A stretch of DNA of 35,703 nt from Pseudomonadota bacterium (GTDB taxonomy: Bacteria > Pseudomonadota > Gammaproteobacteria > Magnimaribacterales > D2472): contig JAOOBR010000011.1 of the NCBI GenBank assembly GCA_028404565.1, forward strand, positions 1 to 35,703, read 5' to 3'. Every line of letters begins with the position of its first letter. Positions within the stretch are counted from its first letter, which is position 1. Shown here one piece after another: positions 11,945-20,012 of this stretch. The position numbers were made by a program, and so were the translations under genes. A model generated the notes under the pieces. That model saw only the letters and a list, made by a program, of their open reading frames with translations. It was not told where the DNA came from and did no database searches.

Positions 11945-13129
11945 TCAGATTGATTCGAAATGTATATCTGCATTTTTAAGTCTTTCAACTAATATATTTC
12001 CAAGACCTGAGGCGCTTGTCAGGACACCTCCGTAATCTGCACCTCCTGGAAGAGTTTCTGGGTCTTCAAGTAATGATAATGCGCATTCAGCAACAAACTT
12101 AGACGTAACTTTATATCCAGGATCACCTTTACCAAACATTCTATAAAGAGACTTTTGACCATCCTCATTTTCAACTAAATATTTACAATCAAACCAACCA
12201 TTTTCTTGAACCTCCAATGAAGGCCCCTCTCCTGGTTTTCTTAAGAATGATCTAACAATTTTTCTTAAGGGTGATACAAGAGTTAAGCCTAGCAGCCCTA
12301 GTCCTAGCGTTGAAAAAAGAGCTTTACTCCAGCTTTTATGAAAAGCATGTTCCTGATATATGAAATTATTTCCATAAGATTTCTGACGTTCGGTCAATAA
12401 AGCCTCACTTCTCCTTACTACTCTAGTATTAGCACCTGCCATAACAAATGGACCTGTCCATGCATTTAAATCTTTCTGTCTAGAAATCTTAAACATATCT
12501 GAGCTTAATTTCTTTTGCTCATTTGTATATGATCCATCTGGATTGAGAAGAAAAGGATCGCGAATTTCTTTCCCTAGATCTAGATCTCCCATTGCAAACA
12601 TTGTCTCTATAGTTCCACCAGAGGCTTCTCCTTTCCAAGAGTGAAATGAGTCAACTCTTTTTACAGGCTTGTTTGAAGATCTAACAGCAAAGAAAGTTCC
12701 AATATCTGAAGGTATTGAATCAAACCCACAAGATGGAATTATTCTTATCCCTTTTTTTGATGCTTCCTCATGATGTTTCTCAATCAACCCTTTAACCCAA
12801 AAATTCTCACCTGTGATATCAACATAATGCGTTCCATTTTCAACACATGCTGCAACAAGTTTTGATCCATATCTATGAAATGGTCCAGCGGTTGATAAAA
12901 CAACTTTAGATCTTGAGCAAATACTCCTTAATCCTTCTTCATTACTAGAATCAGCAATTAAAATTTCAACATTTGTACCCAGGTTGTTTGCTACATCTTG
13001 CAATTTCTTTGGATTTCTCCCTGCTATTGCCCATTTAATTTCAAGGTCTAATGATTGAAAATATTTAACGCAAAGTTGGCCAGTAAAGCCAGTGGCTCCA
13101 TATATAACTATGTCAATATCTTTTTGCAT
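11945..13129 (-). CDS. Saccharopine dehydrogenase-like NAD(P)-binding oxidoreductase
   Basis: A 394-residue protein with an N-terminal Rossmann fold: DIVIYGATGFTGQL (about 5-18) followed by WAIAGRNPKKL. It also has VVLSTAGPFHRYGSKLVAACVENGTHYVDITGE, which is typical of the saccharopine dehydrogenase-like family (COG3268). That group includes trans-acting enoyl reductases and the human SCCPDH-type proteins; true lysine-pathway saccharopine dehydrogenases are different. The C-terminal half has a hydrophobic stretch (ALFSTLGLGLLGLTLVSPL) that may contact membrane or lipid. A lipid-related reductase role is possible but is inference. It lies between the YHYH lipoprotein gene and coaD, all on the reverse strand. 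Confidence 0.82.
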   Translation of the reverse strand: MQKDIDIVIYGATGFTGQLCVKYFQSLDLEIKWAIAGRNPKKLQDVANNLGTNVEILIADSSNEEGLRSICSRSKVVLSTAGPFHRYGSKLVAACVENGTHYVDITGENFWVKGLIEKHHEEASKKGIRIIPSCGFDSIPSDIGTFFAVRSSNKPVKRVDSFHSWKGEASGGTIETMFAMGDLDLGKEIRDPFLLNPDGSYTNEQKKLSSDMFKISRQKDLNAWTGPFVMAGANTRVVRRSEALLTERQKSYGNNFIYQEHAFHKSWSKALFSTLGLGLLGLTLVSPLRKIVRSFLRKPGEGPSLEVQENGWFDCKYLVENEDGQKSLYRMFGKGDPGYKVTSKFVAECALSLLEDPETLPGGADYGGVLTSASGLGNILVERLKNADIHFESI

Positions 13130-13162: not shown

Positions 13163-14392
13163 TTACTTCTGAAAAGAAGAATCAATAGTTCCTTTAAAGC
13201 AATTTAATATATATGGATATCCATCAGTCACATAATATCCATAGCTGCCTTTGAAGATCATACCATTGCATTCATCTAGATCTCCAGCATCCGTCCATTC
13301 CCAATCCTCTTCATATATACCGGAATATGAGCCGCCAGGATTCGAGTTACTTTGAGGACCTCTTGTTCCTTCTTTTAGCGTATAACCGGATAGAACTTTC
13401 CGGAATGAGCCTGTAGTATCATCCAAAATATAAGATCCATATATAGGAAACCCGTCTGCTGCGAATCCAATTAAAGGAGAACCATCTCCAGAAGGGCTAT
13501 CGTCAAACATAGCATTAGGATTCCCATGATAATGATAAGTCCCATCGCCTTGAACATGCGCATTATGTATATCAACTCTAAACATTGATTTATATTCCAA
13601 AGGAACTAAATTCCACTGCGCAGATTGATTGCATCCTGCTGGGATATTTCCATCAGGATTTGCATTTGAACTTGTTGGTGAATAGCAGCCTGCGCTTTTA
13701 AGATCAACCACTACCCCGTTGAGCATTATTGCATCCCAAATGTTTCTCATTATTGGTGAATTTTGTGAAGCTTGTTGTGGAGATCTTTTGATTTGGAAGA
13801 TTCTCTCAATTTCAATAGCATCATGAGCGAAACCTGCTGATGAGTCATTAAAATCATGATTTGGGATATTGTCACTATAAATCTCACAAAACTCTTCAGA
13901 GGAAGCAATATCTACGTAGCCATCAAAATCTAAGACTCTAGTGAGATCTCTTACATTAGAACTATAGTTTTCAACATATTCTGAGCAATCATTACTTCTT
14001 TTTGAAAAAATACTATTCGTTATATCTATACGAGCAACTAAACCAGTCACATTTACAGTTGCGGAACCTGTTACTTTACCTGGTGCTGTGCAGGTTATAG
14101 TGAATGTATTGGTGCCTGTTTTTGCAATAATTACTTCTTCGGTATTCCCTAAGGGGCTTTTGCTTCCTGACCAATCACCTGATGCTATACAAGAATTAGG
14201 AACGGCTCCAGAAACTACATGGGAAATTTCTATGGATTGACCTATCTCAACCTCAGACGCACTTGCAGATATGGTGACAATTATTATATTGTTTGCAAAT
14301 GGTGCTGGTGGAGTGGTTCCCTCACTTCCTCCGCTGCCACATCCAAAAAGCAATAAAAGTGAAGATGAGAATATTAGTATTCTATTTTTCAT
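13163..14392 (-). CDS. YHYH-domain lipoprotein with an N-terminal Ig-like region
   Basis: A 409-residue predicted lipoprotein, using the ATG at 14392. The N-terminus MKNRILIFSSSLLLLFGCGSGG is a lipoprotein signal with a lipobox ending LFGC. An upstream frame extension exists to 14464, but it would bury the signal sequence and overlap the divergent gene. After a Gly/Ser/Thr/Pro linker, residues around 35-120 look like an immunoglobulin-like beta domain (ISASASEVEIGQSIEIS, CTAPGKVTGSATVNVTG). The C-terminal part carries GTYHYHGNPNAM and PLIGFAADGFPIYGSY, the hallmark of YHYH proteins (PF14240). The paired His and acidic residues suggest metal binding, though the family function is not established. 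It is divergent from the CopG-like DUF411 gene with 55 bases between, so a shared metal-related role is plausible but unproven. Confidence 0.82.
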   Translation of the reverse strand: MKNRILIFSSSLLLLFGCGSGGSEGTTPPAPFANNIIIVTISASASEVEIGQSIEISHVVSGAVPNSCIASGDWSGSKSPLGNTEEVIIAKTGTNTFTITCTAPGKVTGSATVNVTGLVARIDITNSIFSKRSNDCSEYVENYSSNVRDLTRVLDFDGYVDIASSEEFCEIYSDNIPNHDFNDSSAGFAHDAIEIERIFQIKRSPQQASQNSPIMRNIWDAIMLNGVVVDLKSAGCYSPTSSNANPDGNIPAGCNQSAQWNLVPLEYKSMFRVDIHNAHVQGDGTYHYHGNPNAMFDDSPSGDGSPLIGFAADGFPIYGSYILDDTTGSFRKVLSGYTLKEGTRGPQSNSNPGGSYSGIYEEDWEWTDAGDLDECNGMIFKGSYGYYVTDGYPYILNCFKGTIDSSFQK

Positions 14393-14432
14393 GAATATTA
14401 AAATTTTAGCATGGTGAAAACTTGATACTTCT

Positions 14433-14448
14433 TGGTATGATAAATAAA
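14433..14448 (+). promoter_or_regulatory. Extended -10 element placing the start site at the DUF411 ATG (possible leaderless mRNA)
   Basis: TGG followed by TATGAT (14436-14441) fits the extended -10 pattern TGnTATAAT with one mismatch. Seven bases downstream is position 14448, the A of the DUF411 ATG. No ribosome binding site is visible in the bases before that ATG. No good -35 lies at the right distance, as expected for extended -10 promoters. This is consensus matching only. Confidence 0.3.
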
Positions 14449-14918
14449 TGAAAATAAATTCCAAAAATCAAATACTCTTTTTATTTACAATTTGCTTATT
14501 ATCGCTGGAAATGCCAAGTGAATCTTTTGAGAGTGAAGAATCTCTTTTAGTTCATAAAACTCCTACTTGTGGATGTTGCAAGATGTGGATTAAGCATTTG
14601 GAAGGAAATGGATTTACTACTTCAATAGAAGACCATAGCAACCTACAAGAAATTAAAGAAAAATATGATATCAAGCCAGAGTTTAGATCTTGCCACACAG
14701 GTGTTTCAAAAGATGGATATATTTTTGAAGGTCACATTCCAAGCAAATATATAACTAAATTCCTCTCAGAAGAGCACCCAAATGCAATTGGTTTATCTGT
14801 TCCTGGAATGCCACTTGGTTCACCTGGGATGGAAGTTGAAGGAATGTTCACGCCTTATGATGTTCTTATCCTTTTTAAAGACGGAACAAGCAAAGTTTAT
14901 GCTGAGGTAAGAAAATAA
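14448..14918 (+). CDS. DUF411 metal-binding protein, CopG-like, exported
   Basis: A 156-residue protein. Residues 1-26 form a signal peptide-like hydrophobic N-terminus. The mature part contains HKTPTCGCCKMWIKHL with Cys41, Cys43 and Cys44, plus Cys82 in FRSCHTG, and then VPGMPLGSPGMEVEG, the full DUF411 pattern. Family knowledge: the DUF411 protein CopG of Pseudomonas is a periplasmic thioredoxin-like protein that binds a small copper cluster through such cysteines and supports copper resistance. By analogy this protein probably handles copper in the periplasm. Its neighbour on the opposite strand is the YHYH lipoprotein, while the next gene downstream (24 bases to its ATG) encodes an S9 peptidase. 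No copper ATPase, CopA/B oxidase or CueR-type regulator is in the window. Confidence 0.88.
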   Translation: MKINSKNQILFLFTICLLSLEMPSESFESEESLLVHKTPTCGCCKMWIKHLEGNGFTTSIEDHSNLQEIKEKYDIKPEFRSCHTGVSKDGYIFEGHIPSKYITKFLSEEHPNAIGLSVPGMPLGSPGMEVEGMFTPYDVLILFKDGTSKVYAEVRK

Positions 14919-14942
14919 CAAGGTATTTTGTGCATTAACTTT

Positions 14943-16979
14943 ATGAATAATAGTTTTATATTAATAGCTCTAGTCTTCCTCGCCTCTCCTTGGGCAGAAG
15001 CTAAAGAAGATCTTAATTACTTTGATCCAATGGATGTTTTCGAGCTTGAATGGGCTTCTGATCCTCAAGTTTCATCTGATGGAGAAACAATAGTTTATGT
15101 AAGAAAATCTAATGACATTATGAAAGACAGAGTTCGATCTAGTCTTTGGAGAATAGCAAAAGATGGAAGAGACCATAGACCTTTGCACTCAGGACTTAAA
15201 AATTCATACTCTCCACGCTGGTCATCAGATAATAAAAGAATTGCTTTTGTTTCAAATAACTCTGGGTCAACCCAGATTCACATGCATTGGGTAGATACTG
15301 GTGAAACTGCGGTAATTTCTCAACTTCAAGAATCGCCATCAAGCTTATCATGGTCACCAGATGGAAAATGGTTGGCATTTACGATGAAAGTAAAAGCTGA
15401 AAGCAAATCCTTCGTTGATGAAAGAGATAAACCTGATGGAGCATCATGGGCAAAGAAACCAATTACAGTTACCACTACAAGATATCAATATGATGGCAGA
15501 GGGATTGTTGAGCCTTCATATCGTCATATATTTGTAGTCCCTGCTGAAGGAGGCTCAGCTCGCCAACTAACCACTGGAGATTTTAATCATTATGGTTCGC
15601 TTTCATGGTCAAAGGATAGTAAAGACATTTTCTTCTCTGCATACAGATCAGATGATTGGGAGCTTGTTAGTAATGAAGCTGATATTTACTCTGTTTCTGT
15701 TTCTAACAATGAATTGAAACAAATTACAAAAAAATCTGGTGAGGAAAGATCTCCAGCCGTATCACCTAATGGGAAAATGATTGCTTTTTACGTGAAGGAA
15801 AGGCGTCCTTTGGCTTACACTCCAAGCAAAATAGCTGTAATGGATCTTCAAAGCAGGGAAATAAAAATAATTACAAAAGACCTCGATGATGATGCAGACA
15901 ATTTATTCTGGTCAGAAGATAGTCAATCTATCTATTTTGCCTTTGATAATAGAGGAGAAAGAACTATTAAACAGATTTCCTTAAATGGAGATTTAAATGA
16001 AATTGCATCAAATGTTGGTGGTACCACAATCGGAAGACCATATATTTCTGGCGGATTTCATATAGCTAATGGGACTGCTGCTTATACCTATGGAAAGCCT
16101 GATAGGCCTGCTGATGTTGGCGTTGCGATAAAGGGTAAAACAAAAGTATTAACCCAATTAAATGAAGATATTCTTGGCTTCAGGAAGCTAGGAAAGGTTA
16201 ATGAAATAATATATAACTCTTCATTTGATACTGAAGAAATACATGGCTGGTATATTACACCCCCAAATTTTGATCCATCTAAAAAGTATCCTTTAATACT
16301 TGAAATCCATGGTGGTCCACATCTTGCTTATGGACCTCACTTCTCAGCAGAGCTTCAAATGATGGCAGCCTCTGGATATATTGTTTTTTATAATAACTAT
16401 AGAGGTAGTTCATCTTATGGTGAGGATTTTGCGTTATTGCTTCAATACAAATATTCAAGTCCAGAAGATTTTGCAGATCATATGTCAGGTATAGATGCCC
16501 TAATTGGTAAAGGTATTGTTGATGAAAATAATCTTTTCATTGCTGGTGGTAGTGCTGGGGGTATAGCTACTGCTTATGCAATAGGTCTAACAGATAGATT
16601 TAATGCAGCCGTATCAGCAAAACCAGTAATTAATTGGTTGAGCAAGCCTTTAACTGCGGATTCCATGGTTGGGCAGATATATCATCAATTCCCTGGACCT
16701 CCGTGGGAACACCTTGAACATTATTGGGAACGCTCTCCTCTTTCTCTTGTCGGAAATGTAACTACTCCAACAATGTTAATCACTGGAGAAGATGATAGAA
16801 GAACTCCAATTTCAGAAACAGAACAGTTCTATCAAGCATTGAGATTGAGAGGTGTTGATAGCGCAATGATACGAATCCCAGATACATCGCATGGCATTGC
16901 AAGTAGGCCGTCAAATCTAATAACTAAGGTTGATCATATACTTGCTTGGTTTGAAAAATATAAGAATGATGTCGATTAA
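14943..16979 (+). CDS. Secreted S9-family peptidase (prolyl oligopeptidase / acylaminoacyl-peptidase type)
   Basis: A 678-residue serine peptidase, using the ATG at 14943. The N-terminus MNNSFILIALVFLASPWAEA is a signal peptide with an AEA cleavage site. An in-frame TTG lies 15 bases upstream, but the ATG gives the better signal sequence. Residues up to about 400 form a beta-propeller with repeated SPDGKWLAF / SWSKDSKDIFF / SEDSQSIYF WD40-like blades. The C-terminal alpha/beta hydrolase has the ILEIHGGPH oxyanion segment and the triad Ser537 (GGSAGG), Asp618 (GEDDRRTP) and His650 (DTSHG). It likely degrades short or acylated peptides in the periplasm. It follows the DUF411 gene closely, but a functional link is not evident. 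Confidence 0.92.
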   Translation: MNNSFILIALVFLASPWAEAKEDLNYFDPMDVFELEWASDPQVSSDGETIVYVRKSNDIMKDRVRSSLWRIAKDGRDHRPLHSGLKNSYSPRWSSDNKRIAFVSNNSGSTQIHMHWVDTGETAVISQLQESPSSLSWSPDGKWLAFTMKVKAESKSFVDERDKPDGASWAKKPITVTTTRYQYDGRGIVEPSYRHIFVVPAEGGSARQLTTGDFNHYGSLSWSKDSKDIFFSAYRSDDWELVSNEADIYSVSVSNNELKQITKKSGEERSPAVSPNGKMIAFYVKERRPLAYTPSKIAVMDLQSREIKIITKDLDDDADNLFWSEDSQSIYFAFDNRGERTIKQISLNGDLNEIASNVGGTTIGRPYISGGFHIANGTAAYTYGKPDRPADVGVAIKGKTKVLTQLNEDILGFRKLGKVNEIIYNSSFDTEEIHGWYITPPNFDPSKKYPLILEIHGGPHLAYGPHFSAELQMMAASGYIVFYNNYRGSSSYGEDFALLLQYKYSSPEDFADHMSGIDALIGKGIVDENNLFIAGGSAGGIATAYAIGLTDRFNAAVSAKPVINWLSKPLTADSMVGQIYHQFPGPPWEHLEHYWERSPLSLVGNVTTPTMLITGEDDRRTPISETEQFYQALRLRGVDSAMIRIPDTSHGIASRPSNLITKVDHILAWFEKYKNDVD

Positions 16980-17005: not shown

Positions 17006-17635
17006 ATGAAAGGTTATTGGGTCGTTGCTGTTCAGGATGTAATTAAACCAGATACATGGGAACAAGTATTATCGTCATGGGGAAATTATGTAGAAAGATC
17101 TAATGGTGTTGTAAATCCTATATCATTTGGTCTGCCTAAGGCAGTTTATGAATCAGGGATTGAAAAAACAACTGCTGTAATTGAGTTTCCATCGCTTGAT
17201 CAGGCAGTTCACGCAAGAACTAAGGATCCAGACTATTATCAAGGAGTAATTGAAGCTGACGGTACTCCTGTTGAGAACAAAGTAATCAGGGACTTCAGAA
17301 TTATTGAAGTAGAGGGTGGTTGGATGAAGCCAGGTCATGGATATTGGCTTGTTTGGGTAAGAGAGTTTAAAGATAAAGAGAGTTGGTTAGAAAAAGTAAT
17401 GCCAGCTTGGCAGGAATATGTTGCTTCAGGAGCTTGTAAAGTTCATCATCTTAAGCCACCTCATATAGCTGTAGAGGATGGAAGAATGCTTCCTTTTGCT
17501 TTGTGTGAATTTCCCTCTTTACAAGATGCTATCAATGCAAGGAACAGCGATGAATATAACAAAGATGTTCTTGGTGCAGCAGGAAAACCTGTTGAAAAAA
17601 TGGCAATTAGAGATTTCAGGATTATTGAAGGGTAA
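17006..17635 (+). CDS. Tandem DUF1330 (dimeric alpha-beta barrel) protein
   Basis: A 209-residue cytoplasmic protein made of two related halves, about 1-98 and 107-209. Each begins GYWVV/GYWLV and has a conserved Trp region followed by a phenylalanine-proline-serine-leucine segment (EFPSLDQAVHAR / EFPSLQDAINAR). Each ends VIRDFRIIE / AIRDFRIIEG. That is the DUF1330 fold (PF07045), normally a single domain of about 95 residues. A tandem copy probably makes an intramolecular version of the usual dimer. Function is unknown; DABB relatives include small monooxygenases and ligand binders. A strong GGAGG ribosome binding site precedes the ATG. The TAA stop is one base from the 3' end of the convergent tRNA gene. 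Confidence 0.85.
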   Translation: MKGYWVVAVQDVIKPDTWEQVLSSWGNYVERSNGVVNPISFGLPKAVYESGIEKTTAVIEFPSLDQAVHARTKDPDYYQGVIEADGTPVENKVIRDFRIIEVEGGWMKPGHGYWLVWVREFKDKESWLEKVMPAWQEYVASGACKVHHLKPPHIAVEDGRMLPFALCEFPSLQDAINARNSDEYNKDVLGAAGKPVEKMAIRDFRIIEG

Positions 17636-17767: not shown

Positions 17768-18133
17768 TTATTTCTTACAGTAAGCCTCATAGTTTTTAGC
17801 ATAATTGGCTGCTAACTCTGCTAAAGCCATTGCATCTAAATAATGCTTATCTGCTTTTTCTTGGTGGCCCATCTTTTCATGTTTTTCACCTTCTTTCATG
17901 GATTCACCAGCAAAATATAAAAAAGCGCCTGATGCTTCACTAACCTTTTTGCAATTTTCAGGCTTCCATCTTCCCCACCTTTCCATCTCTTTCTTCATAT
18001 GGGCTTCTTTCTTCTTCACCATTTCCATTCTTTTCATCTCTTTAGGTGACTTACCTTCTTTTTTGCCATGGTCATCTGCAAGAATCATGAATGGAACTGA
18101 CAAAAAAACTAATAGTGATATTTTTTTAAACAT
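17768..18133 (-). CDS. Small secreted Lys/Met/His-rich protein, function unknown
   Basis: I do not recognise a family. The 121-residue product has a clear signal peptide (MFKKISLLVFLSVPFMILA, then DDHG). Residues 22-60 form a highly charged segment rich in Lys, Met, Glu and His (KEMKRMEMVKKKEAHMKKEM). A C-terminal helical region follows, with ESMKEGEKHEKMGHQEKAD and AMALAELAANYAKNYEAY. Two cysteines, Cys61 and Cys119, flank the helical part and could form a periplasmic disulfide. A GGAG ribosome binding site lies 8-10 bases before the ATG. The Met/His content might suggest metal binding, but the pattern is not a known motif. It lies 67 bases downstream of rpoD and upstream of the tRNA on the same strand. 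Confidence 0.75.
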   Translation of the reverse strand: MFKKISLLVFLSVPFMILADDHGKKEGKSPKEMKRMEMVKKKEAHMKKEMERWGRWKPENCKKVSEASGAFLYFAGESMKEGEKHEKMGHQEKADKHYLDAMALAELAANYAKNYEAYCKK

Positions 18134-18200: not shown

Positions 18201-20012
18201 TTAGTCGTCTAAAAAGCTTCTTAAATGACTTGATCTCGCTGGATGCCTAAGCTTTCTTAATGCTTTTGCTTCAATCTGCCTAATTCTTTCCCTAGTAACA
18301 TCAAACTGCTTACCAACCTCTTCAAGAGTATGATCAGTATTCATGCCTATACCAAATCTCATTCTAAGAACTTTTGCTTCTCTTGCAGTTAAAGATGATA
18401 GGACATCATCTGTAGCAAAATGCAGACTTTCGTCCGTTGCATTTTCAAGCGGAGATTCGATAACAGTATCTTCAATGAAGTCTCCTAGGTTTGAATCCTC
18501 ATCATCACCAATTGGTGTTTCCATTGAAATAGGCTCTTTAGCAATCTTTAGTACTTTTCTTACTTTATCCTCAGGCATATCAAGCTCGTTACTTAACTCT
18601 TCTGGTGTTGGTTCTCGTCCCATATCTTGCATCATCTGTCTTGAAACTCTATTCAATTTATTAATAGTTTCAATCATATGAACAGGTATTCTTATAGTTC
18701 TTGCTTGATCAGCAATAGATCTTGTTATAGCTTGCCTAATCCACCAAGTTGCATAAGTACTAAACTTATAACCTCTTCTGTATTCAAATTTATCAACGGC
18801 TTTCATCAGACCAATATTTCCTTCTTGGATTAGATCTAAGAACTGTAACCCTCTATTGGTGTATTTTTTCGCTATAGATATTACAAGTCTTAGGTTAGCC
18901 TCAACCATATCTTTTTTTGCACGTCTCATCTTGGTTTCACCCATAGACATACTTCTATTGATTTCTTTGATTTCTTTTGACGAAAGTCCAACCTTTTCTT
19001 CGAGAGCCTTGATTTCTTTCTGAGAAATCATCACATCTTGTTTCACTTTTTCGAGCAAGTCTTTTTTAAATTTCTTATTTTTAATAAATGACGGCATGAT
19101 TGTCATTTTTGTAAAGTTGTCTTTAAAAGCTTCTATAAAGTCTTTTCTGGGAACTCTTGCACTCTTCACGCATAAAGTCTGAATGATTCTTTCATGGCTT
19201 CTTATTGTTTCAAGGTCATGTCTTGCAATAATGCAAATTTCTTCAAACATTCTTGGACTAAACTTTAAGAACTTAAAAATATTACCAAGTTTTTCGAACT
19301 CCTCTTGGGTTTTCTTATGATTTCGGCCATTTTTATCAAGTACTTTCATTGTTTTGTTGTACTGTCTTTTAAGAGAAGTCATTCTTCTTTGGACTTCTTT
19401 AAAATCTAAATCGCCATCATTTTCATCATCATCTTTTTTATCTGCAAGCTGTTTTGCTTTTTCACTTCCAGGCCCAGCTGAGGGGACTTCTTCCATTTCT
19501 TCCAAGAATCCAGTTAAAAGATCATTGATTTTCTTTTCTTCATCTTTGACAAGCTGAAAGTAGGACAAAACATATTCAACAGTTCTTGGATATTGTGCAC
19601 TTGCAAGAAGAAGATCTCTCATCCCCTCTTCAATTCTTTTAGCGATCTCTATTTCGCCTTCTCGAGTAAGTAAGTCTACAGTACCCATTTCTCTCATGTA
19701 CATTCTTACTGGATCAGTTGTTCTTCCTGTTTCATTTTCAACAGCTACTAGAGCCTCTGCAGCTTGCTCAAGCGCTATATCATCAGTATTTTCTGACTCT
19801 CGAAGCATGAGGGTATCTAAATCAGGAGCTTTTTCATGAACTTGGAGACCAAGATCATTAATCATTCCAATTATTTCTTCTACTTGATCTGGGTCAGAAA
19901 TATCATCAGGGAGATGATCATTTACATCATCATAAGTAAGAAACCCTTGTTCGCGTCCCTTCTCTATAAGTTCAGCTATTTTTGAGCCTTCTTGTTTTGA
20001 AAATTTATCCAC
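18201..20012 (-). CDS. rpoD: Primary RNA polymerase sigma factor RpoD (sigma-70)
   Basis: A 603-residue housekeeping sigma factor. It has an N-terminal region 1.1 ([25 protein letters not shown]), region 1.2 ([21 protein letters not shown]) and an acidic non-conserved insert. Region 2 follows ([57 protein letters not shown]), then region 3 and region 4.2 ([20 protein letters not shown]). All promoter-recognition segments are intact. The start is GTG at 20012: the next residues [18 protein letters not shown] match the family start. It lies 57 bases downstream of dnaG on the same strand, preserving the dnaG-rpoD part of the macromolecular synthesis operon. Confidence 0.96.

Follow-up and report, generated by a model that had tools for sequence, protein, structure and literature searches.

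Two exported proteins, one carrying a DUF411 domain and one a YHYH domain, are encoded back to back at the locus studied here, and the question that this arrangement raises is whether they work together on copper. The locus lies in a 35,703-nucleotide stretch of DNA, here called the window, which is contig 3 of a 1.08-Mb, 31-contig, 79% complete assembly. The window belongs to the SAR86 cluster of ocean bacteria, and its YHYH protein is 96% identical to the copy of the uncultured SAR86 cluster bacterium isolate AG-447-G17. A preliminary description had read the pairing as a small copper-handling unit. We propose, with a probability of roughly three in four, that the locus as a whole is best explained by a CopG-type DUF411 protein and a YHYH protein with a separate role, which are neighbours in a shared gain-and-loss slot and not an obligate unit.

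Table 1. Features of the window that bear on the gene pair and on the slot in which it lies
Feature	Coordinates	Strand	Details
Saccharopine dehydrogenase-like protein, left slot border	11945-13129	-	PF03435 E 7.2e-16
YHYH-domain protein	13163-14392	-	409 aa from ATG; PF14240 residues 199-401, E 1.3e-46, 159.5 bits, cut-off 25
Divergent spacer, possible shared promoter region	14393-14447	.	55 bases, ATG to ATG
DUF411/CopG-like protein	14448-14918	+	156 aa; PF04214 E 1.1e-20, 73.5 bits, cut-off 27
S9 prolyl oligopeptidase-family peptidase, downstream of DUF411, slot member	14928-16979	+	PF00326 E 1.3e-47
DUF1330 protein, slot member	17006-17635	+	PF07045 E 5.1e-9
121-aa hypothetical protein, right slot border	17768-18133	-	no Pfam match
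rpoD, right slot border	18201-20012	-	

Coordinates and Pfam matches agree with the preliminary description in placing the two genes back to back across a 55-base spacer. PF14240 and PF04214 each have one match in the window's genome, both over the Pfam curated cut-offs; NCBIfam gave no model for either protein. The pair is also found intact, in the same divergent order and with the same spacer length, in two other genomes of the genus (G006 and G008; the window's own genome is G000), and therefore does not reflect a chance reading of open frames. An alternative, earlier TTG start of the YHYH gene at 14464 would create an overlap with the DUF411 gene. The wider surroundings are mostly core genes, with topoisomerase subunits, tolC, mutM and coaD on one side and rpoD, dnaG and ruvX on the other.

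The link of DUF411 to copper through CopG, which the preliminary description had drawn, is well supported. Residues 33-153 of the DUF411 protein match PDB 6wis at E 7.8e-27 (phmmer), and the alignment pairs the CGCC, CHTG and Met-rich GMPxGSPGME segments of the two proteins. The Cys-x-Cys-Cys site described earlier is found as C41-G-C43-C44; it falls outside Pfam's short PF04214 model, which spans just residues 80-128, yet it is aligned in 6wis. In all 33 aligned SAR86 copies, chosen from 57 matches in 55 genomes, C41, C43, C44, H50, C82, H83, H96, M121 and M128 are invariant. The N-terminus is hydrophobic, as judged by eye. Passages of PMC7558416 and PMC8456105 identify 6wis, by its listing a DUF411 domain-containing protein, as CopG. 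They depict CopG as a thioredoxin-fold protein of the periplasm whose CxCC and two Met hold a tetranuclear copper cluster, and propose that it oxidises Cu(I) and hands copper on. A passage of PMC6444534 likewise places a P. aeruginosa protein with DUF411 homology in the response to copper stress. We infer that M121 and M128 are the Met pair that serves as cluster ligands here. Based on homology and conservation, the product of the DUF411 gene would be a CopG-type protein of the periplasm in which CxCC, C-H and two Met ligands most likely bind copper, and it would buffer or redox-cycle periplasmic Cu.

For the YHYH protein copper is not indicated. Its N-terminus, MKNRILIFSSSLLLLFGC, is lipobox-like by eye, and the gene probably specifies an exported, lipid-anchored protein. 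Across 72 aligned YHYH domains H279, H287, H289, D274, D313, D363, D373 and six Cys are invariant, and a distant Deinococcus copy keeps the same His and Asp and just two of the six Cys. This His/Asp set makes a metal site plausible; nothing found ties YHYH to copper. Residues 120-409 give a confident structural model (pLDDT 96.1, pTM 0.93) for which Foldseek returned no match in the PDB (best E 0.72) and VIA-align none at Z of at least 2 among 383 chains, although a missing match of this kind does not prove a new fold. Among PDB sequences, the YHYH profile found no match with E below 1, and the whole protein found a single weak one, 7quz (E 0.0055), to its N-terminal residues 31-123. We also observed that the YHYH domain of three SAR86 genomes (G040, G043 and G044; L062:6324-7985, L065:7723-9396 and L068:1963-3273) is interrupted by an insert some 150 residues long, which is weakly ricin-lectin-like in L062, the one scanned (Pfam 22.6 bits, cut-off 29).

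Relatives of the domain occur in viruses. Seven viral models match the YHYH model at E 0.001 or below, of which five, from cyanophages, an uncultured phage and giant viruses, are named YHYH proteins and two are nameless. Queried with the single YHYH protein, viral contigs gave no relative; queried with alignment A1, they gave 32 YHYH loci, none with DUF411. Passages of PMC7824862 propose that the YHYH domains of jumbo phages are tail-associated Zn-dependent hydrolases with a role in peptidoglycan, and predict a Zn site of three His and one Asp. In the relevant passage of PMC11992049, YHYH is named merely in a list of diatom families.

The partners of YHYH elsewhere point to a job other than copper. 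Our set of YHYH loci comprises the best 80 of 467 confirmed matches to a SAR86-led query and so is not a random draw; up to 10 kb was taken on each side, and nine loci have less than 2 kb on one side. Within this set, a sulfatase-type domain is fused in front of YHYH in 19 loci (L107, L108, L109, L110, L112-L115, L118, L119, L122, L123, L126, L127, L130, L131, L139, L148 and L149), seven of them from Colwellia, and by Pfam the fusion was counted in 13 of the 63 scanned. Such a domain lies within 400 bases of YHYH in four more (L088, L103, L143 and L150). The canonical sulfatase nucleophile motif is C-x-P-x-R. All seven fused proteins inspected carry C-[TS]-T-T-R at this place; of two unfused neighbours inspected, L103 has the C-[TS]-T-T-R variant and L088 the canonical form. 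A sulfatase-YHYH fusion is not stated in the passages on the YHYH domain or PF14240 that the literature offered, and putative arylsulfatases are present in all SAR86 families (PMC11582366). Because the sulfatase-type partner recurs, it suggests what to assay for YHYH. Reasoning from these fusions, we tentatively suggest, at slightly worse than even odds, that YHYH is exported and either binds polyanionic or glycan substrates or acts on them as an enzyme, probably in a metal-dependent way.

Proteins of the HupE/UreJ type form a second group of neighbours. The HupE/UreJ family holds metal permeases. Among the best 80 of 467 loci, such a protein lies directly downstream of YHYH in six Granulosicoccaceae/Bermanella loci (L089-L094; Pfam on L093), and one is also annotated downstream of YHYH on a Deinococcus plasmid (L076:8596-9690). 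Because of these neighbours, YHYH may yet have a metal link.

If YHYH and DUF411 formed a unit, their distributions should be linked, and the preliminary description had named co-occurrence and adjacency as the check. Both came out against it. In a family sample of 107 genomes, most of them incomplete so that some absences may be assembly gaps, YHYH was found in 8 and DUF411 in 55; both occur in 5, where chance would give 4.1 (P 0.39). Adjacent copies were seen in 3 of the 107, namely G000, G006 and G008, all of one genus. In G040 they lie 4.2 kb apart in the same rpoD-side region, with GcvT-like and DAO-GcvT-like genes between them, and in G043 they are about 155 kb apart. In G041, G042 and G044 YHYH is present and DUF411 was not detected, the YHYH gene of G044 being on a 3.3-kb contig. 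A class sample of 369 genomes, drawn evenly, has YHYH in 20, DUF411 in 101 and both in 3, including the window's genome. Without the latter, DUF411 occurs in 2 of 19 YHYH genomes against 5.2 expected (P 0.07 for so few), and in neither case is it adjacent: in G166 the genes are on different contigs and in G346 they are 19 kb apart.

The YHYH loci give the same picture. DUF411 lies in the flanks of three of the best 80 of 467 (L077, L078 and L080), all SAR86; since these loci coincide with the contigs of G006, G008 and G040, they are not new cases. It is absent from the fetched flanks of the 76 loci other than L077-L080, which were searched with a local DUF411 profile that recovered each of 10 distant DUF411 copies taken out of the class sample. 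Outside one SAR86 genus, then, neither these flanks nor the class sample gave adjacency beyond chance. Among plasmid records, YHYH occurs in two, and no DUF411 is annotated in their 8-kb flanks, as far as the incomplete gene table goes. Neither PF14240 nor PF04214 was found in the 14 control genomes.

The two genes also appear to have separate histories. In G008, the YHYH protein shares 81% identity with its counterpart in G040, a genome of another genus, and just 68% with the one in G000, of the same genus, whereas the DUF411 protein is 64% identical to G040 and 92% to G000. The YHYH gene of G008 thus looks to have been exchanged with another SAR86 genus, and the neighbouring DUF411 gene does not. 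At the level of loci, this YHYH copy (L061:9224-10432) is 81% and 79% identical to L062 and L064, and 68% within the genus. The spacer keeps its 55 bases in G000, G006 and G008. Between G000 and G008 it is 89% identical, as against 69% for the YHYH gene (DNA) and 92% for DUF411. A spacer better kept than the YHYH gene is also what a shared control region would give, though DUF411 is equally well kept. A promoter scan of 14300-15000 was uninformative (4 promoter-like matches, 2.4 expected), with one match on each strand overlapping the spacer. The shared spacer may co-regulate the two genes locally without making them an obligate unit.

What brings the genes together is, we propose, the site itself. 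Its left border, the saccharopine dehydrogenase-like gene, is complete or almost so in 8 of the 10 genomes of the genus, including the window's own, and from there up to rpoD these eight hold differing subsets of CobW, YHYH, DUF411, S9 peptidase and DUF1330. G000 and G006 have YHYH, DUF411, S9 and DUF1330; G008 has CobW, YHYH, DUF411 and DUF1330; G003 has CobW and DUF411, YHYH being absent; G002 has CobW, S9 and DUF1330; G004 and G005 have S9; and G009 has none of the five. The S9 peptidase gene comes and goes independently of DUF411 within the genus. Given these varying contents, the YHYH-DUF411 pair is a local combination in a gain-and-loss site, and what makes the two genes adjacent in one SAR86 genus is that both occupy this slot, which runs from the saccharopine dehydrogenase-like gene to rpoD. 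In 33 DUF411 contexts, which are hand-chosen stretches and not a random draw, rpoD lies within four genes of DUF411 in 20; other neighbours are GcvT-like (12), CobW (5), S9 (5) and YHYH (4), and, as named by eye, aldehyde dehydrogenase-like (10) and old-yellow-enzyme-like (11) genes.

Two residents of the slot deserve a word of their own. A CobW/COG0523-type GTPase with a CICC motif is found at L059:7662-8867 (the copy with a Pfam assignment), L061:8009-9214 and L056:7448-8653; in L059, 31 bases separate its end from the DUF411 gene, which follows on the same strand, and the two are likely an operon. The 121-aa protein next to rpoD is kept in 8 of 8 slots compared, is Met/Lys-rich (composition taken from the 96% identical L055 copy) and looks exported by eye; it could be metal-related.

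The copper equipment of the lineage as a whole bears on what DUF411 may do. The preliminary description had remarked on the missing copper ATPase at the locus, and this is true of the sampled family, not of the locus alone: the P-type ATPase domain PF00122 passes the cut-off in 0 of 107 genomes of the family and 0 of 10 of the genus, against 14 of 14 controls, and a single sub-threshold match in the family sample (E 6.9e-4) has a stop inside. Laccase-like oxidases (PF07732; 0 of 107, 8 of 14 controls) and PCuAC (0 of 107, 3 of 14 controls) likewise gave no match over cut-off. Sco was found in 89 of 107 family genomes and in all 19 that are of high quality (at least 90% complete, at most 5% contaminated), against 6 of 14 controls, although it was not detected in the window's own incomplete assembly. 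DUF411 is present in 11 of the 19 high-quality genomes. From these 107 genomes, SAR86 appears to be a streamlined lineage that lacks the P-type ATPase transporter class. The passages among the listed matches for SAR86 with P-type ATPase or copper do not state this absence: in PMC4771312 the two terms appear in passing and in references only, as far as its matching passages go, and the words 'copper', 'metal' and 'P-type' are absent from the main text of PMC11582366.

Other readings of these data can be weighed. DUF411 in SAR86 could serve mainly to deliver copper to cytochrome c oxidase together with Sco, replacing PCuAC, and not as a tolerance device. Sco in 89 of 107 genomes and in all 19 of high quality, with PCuAC in 0 of 107, argues for this reading, as does the fact that neither a P-type ATPase nor a laccase-like oxidase that DUF411 could serve passed the cut-off. 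However, DUF411 was undetected in 8 of the 19 high-quality genomes, all eight of which have Sco, so DUF411 looks dispensable for oxidase delivery; furthermore, a passage of PMC8456105 reports that CutG, a DUF411 homologue, is dispensable for another oxidase, CutO of R. capsulatus. We consider this reading unlikely, though worth keeping in mind. Broader still would be a metal-homeostasis island beside rpoD made up of CobW/COG0523, DUF411, YHYH and the small Met/Lys-rich protein. CobW sits in the slot of G002, G003 and G008 and is a neighbour of DUF411 in 5 of the 33 contexts, and the 121-aa protein fits the theme, but the S9, GcvT-like, aldehyde dehydrogenase-like and old-yellow-enzyme-like residents counted above have no metal theme, and such an island seems to us improbable.

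We judge the two-gene copper unit to be just as improbable. Here some SAR86 would use DUF411 to take up or oxidise periplasmic copper and the YHYH lipoprotein to capture or pass it on, under one divergent promoter. The divergent order and 55-base spacer hold in 3 of 3 genus genomes with YHYH, H279, H287, H289 and D313 are invariant in 72 of 72 aligned domains, both genes share the rpoD-side region in G040, and YHYH has HupE/UreJ neighbours elsewhere; a compensating device would also be wanted because no copper ATPase was found in the lineage. Against this stand co-occurrence not above chance, adjacency confined to 3 of 107 genomes of one genus with none found outside SAR86, the exchange of YHYH in G008 independently of DUF411, and DUF411 without YHYH in G003. 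The YHYH protein lacks a Met-rich or CxxC copper motif, by eye, and the six Cys conserved throughout resemble those that form disulfides in an exported domain. Since the evidence runs against it, a two-gene copper module would matter little. A co-inherited YHYH-DUF411 unit, taken as a candidate by itself, is rejected on the chance-level co-occurrence, the lone DUF411 of G003, the discordant identities in G008 and adjacency found in SAR86 only.

With the preferred reading, a CopG-type DUF411 protein beside a YHYH protein of separate role, each gene could matter in its own right. SAR86 is an abundant surface-ocean lineage that seemingly lacks the standard copper export ATPase, yet keeps a CopG-type protein in 55 of 107 genomes; therefore a stand-alone role of CopG becomes testable. 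YHYH is an uncharacterised exported domain whose confidently modelled fold has no PDB match. A more ambitious proposal joins the two: SAR86 would manage its copper with neither P-type ATPases nor laccase-like oxidases nor PCuAC, a free-standing periplasmic CopG-type protein being a main copper device, and YHYH would be a metalloenzyme, of a fold new to the PDB, that acts on sulfated or phosphorylated extracellular substrates. Taken jointly, these statements are doubtful.

Compared with CopG and CutG (PDB 6wis, 6wje), the SAR86 DUF411 protein is alike in the match of residues 33-153, with its CxCC, CHTG and Met-rich segments; by eye, its N-terminus could also be one of an exported protein. It differs in its company. 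Passages of PMC7558416 and PMC8456105 often link CopG and CutG to cueO or cutO, copA or cusCBA, beside which they are found, whereas in the 107 SAR86 family genomes no match to a P-type ATPase, a laccase-like oxidase or PCuAC passes the cut-off; DUF411 would act here alongside Sco, without CopA, a CueO-type oxidase or PCuAC. The proposed His triad and Asp of jumbo-phage YHYH domains fit H279, H287, H289 and D313 of the SAR86 protein, an assignment that we make here, although most of the phage matches carry names of baseplate wedge or other structural proteins. Within the PF14240 family the SAR86 protein is a full-length domain match (E 1.3e-46) with the invariant His/Asp set; it stands solo beside DUF411, whereas its relatives may carry a fused sulfatase-type domain (19 of the best 80 of 467 loci) or be found in phage structural proteins.
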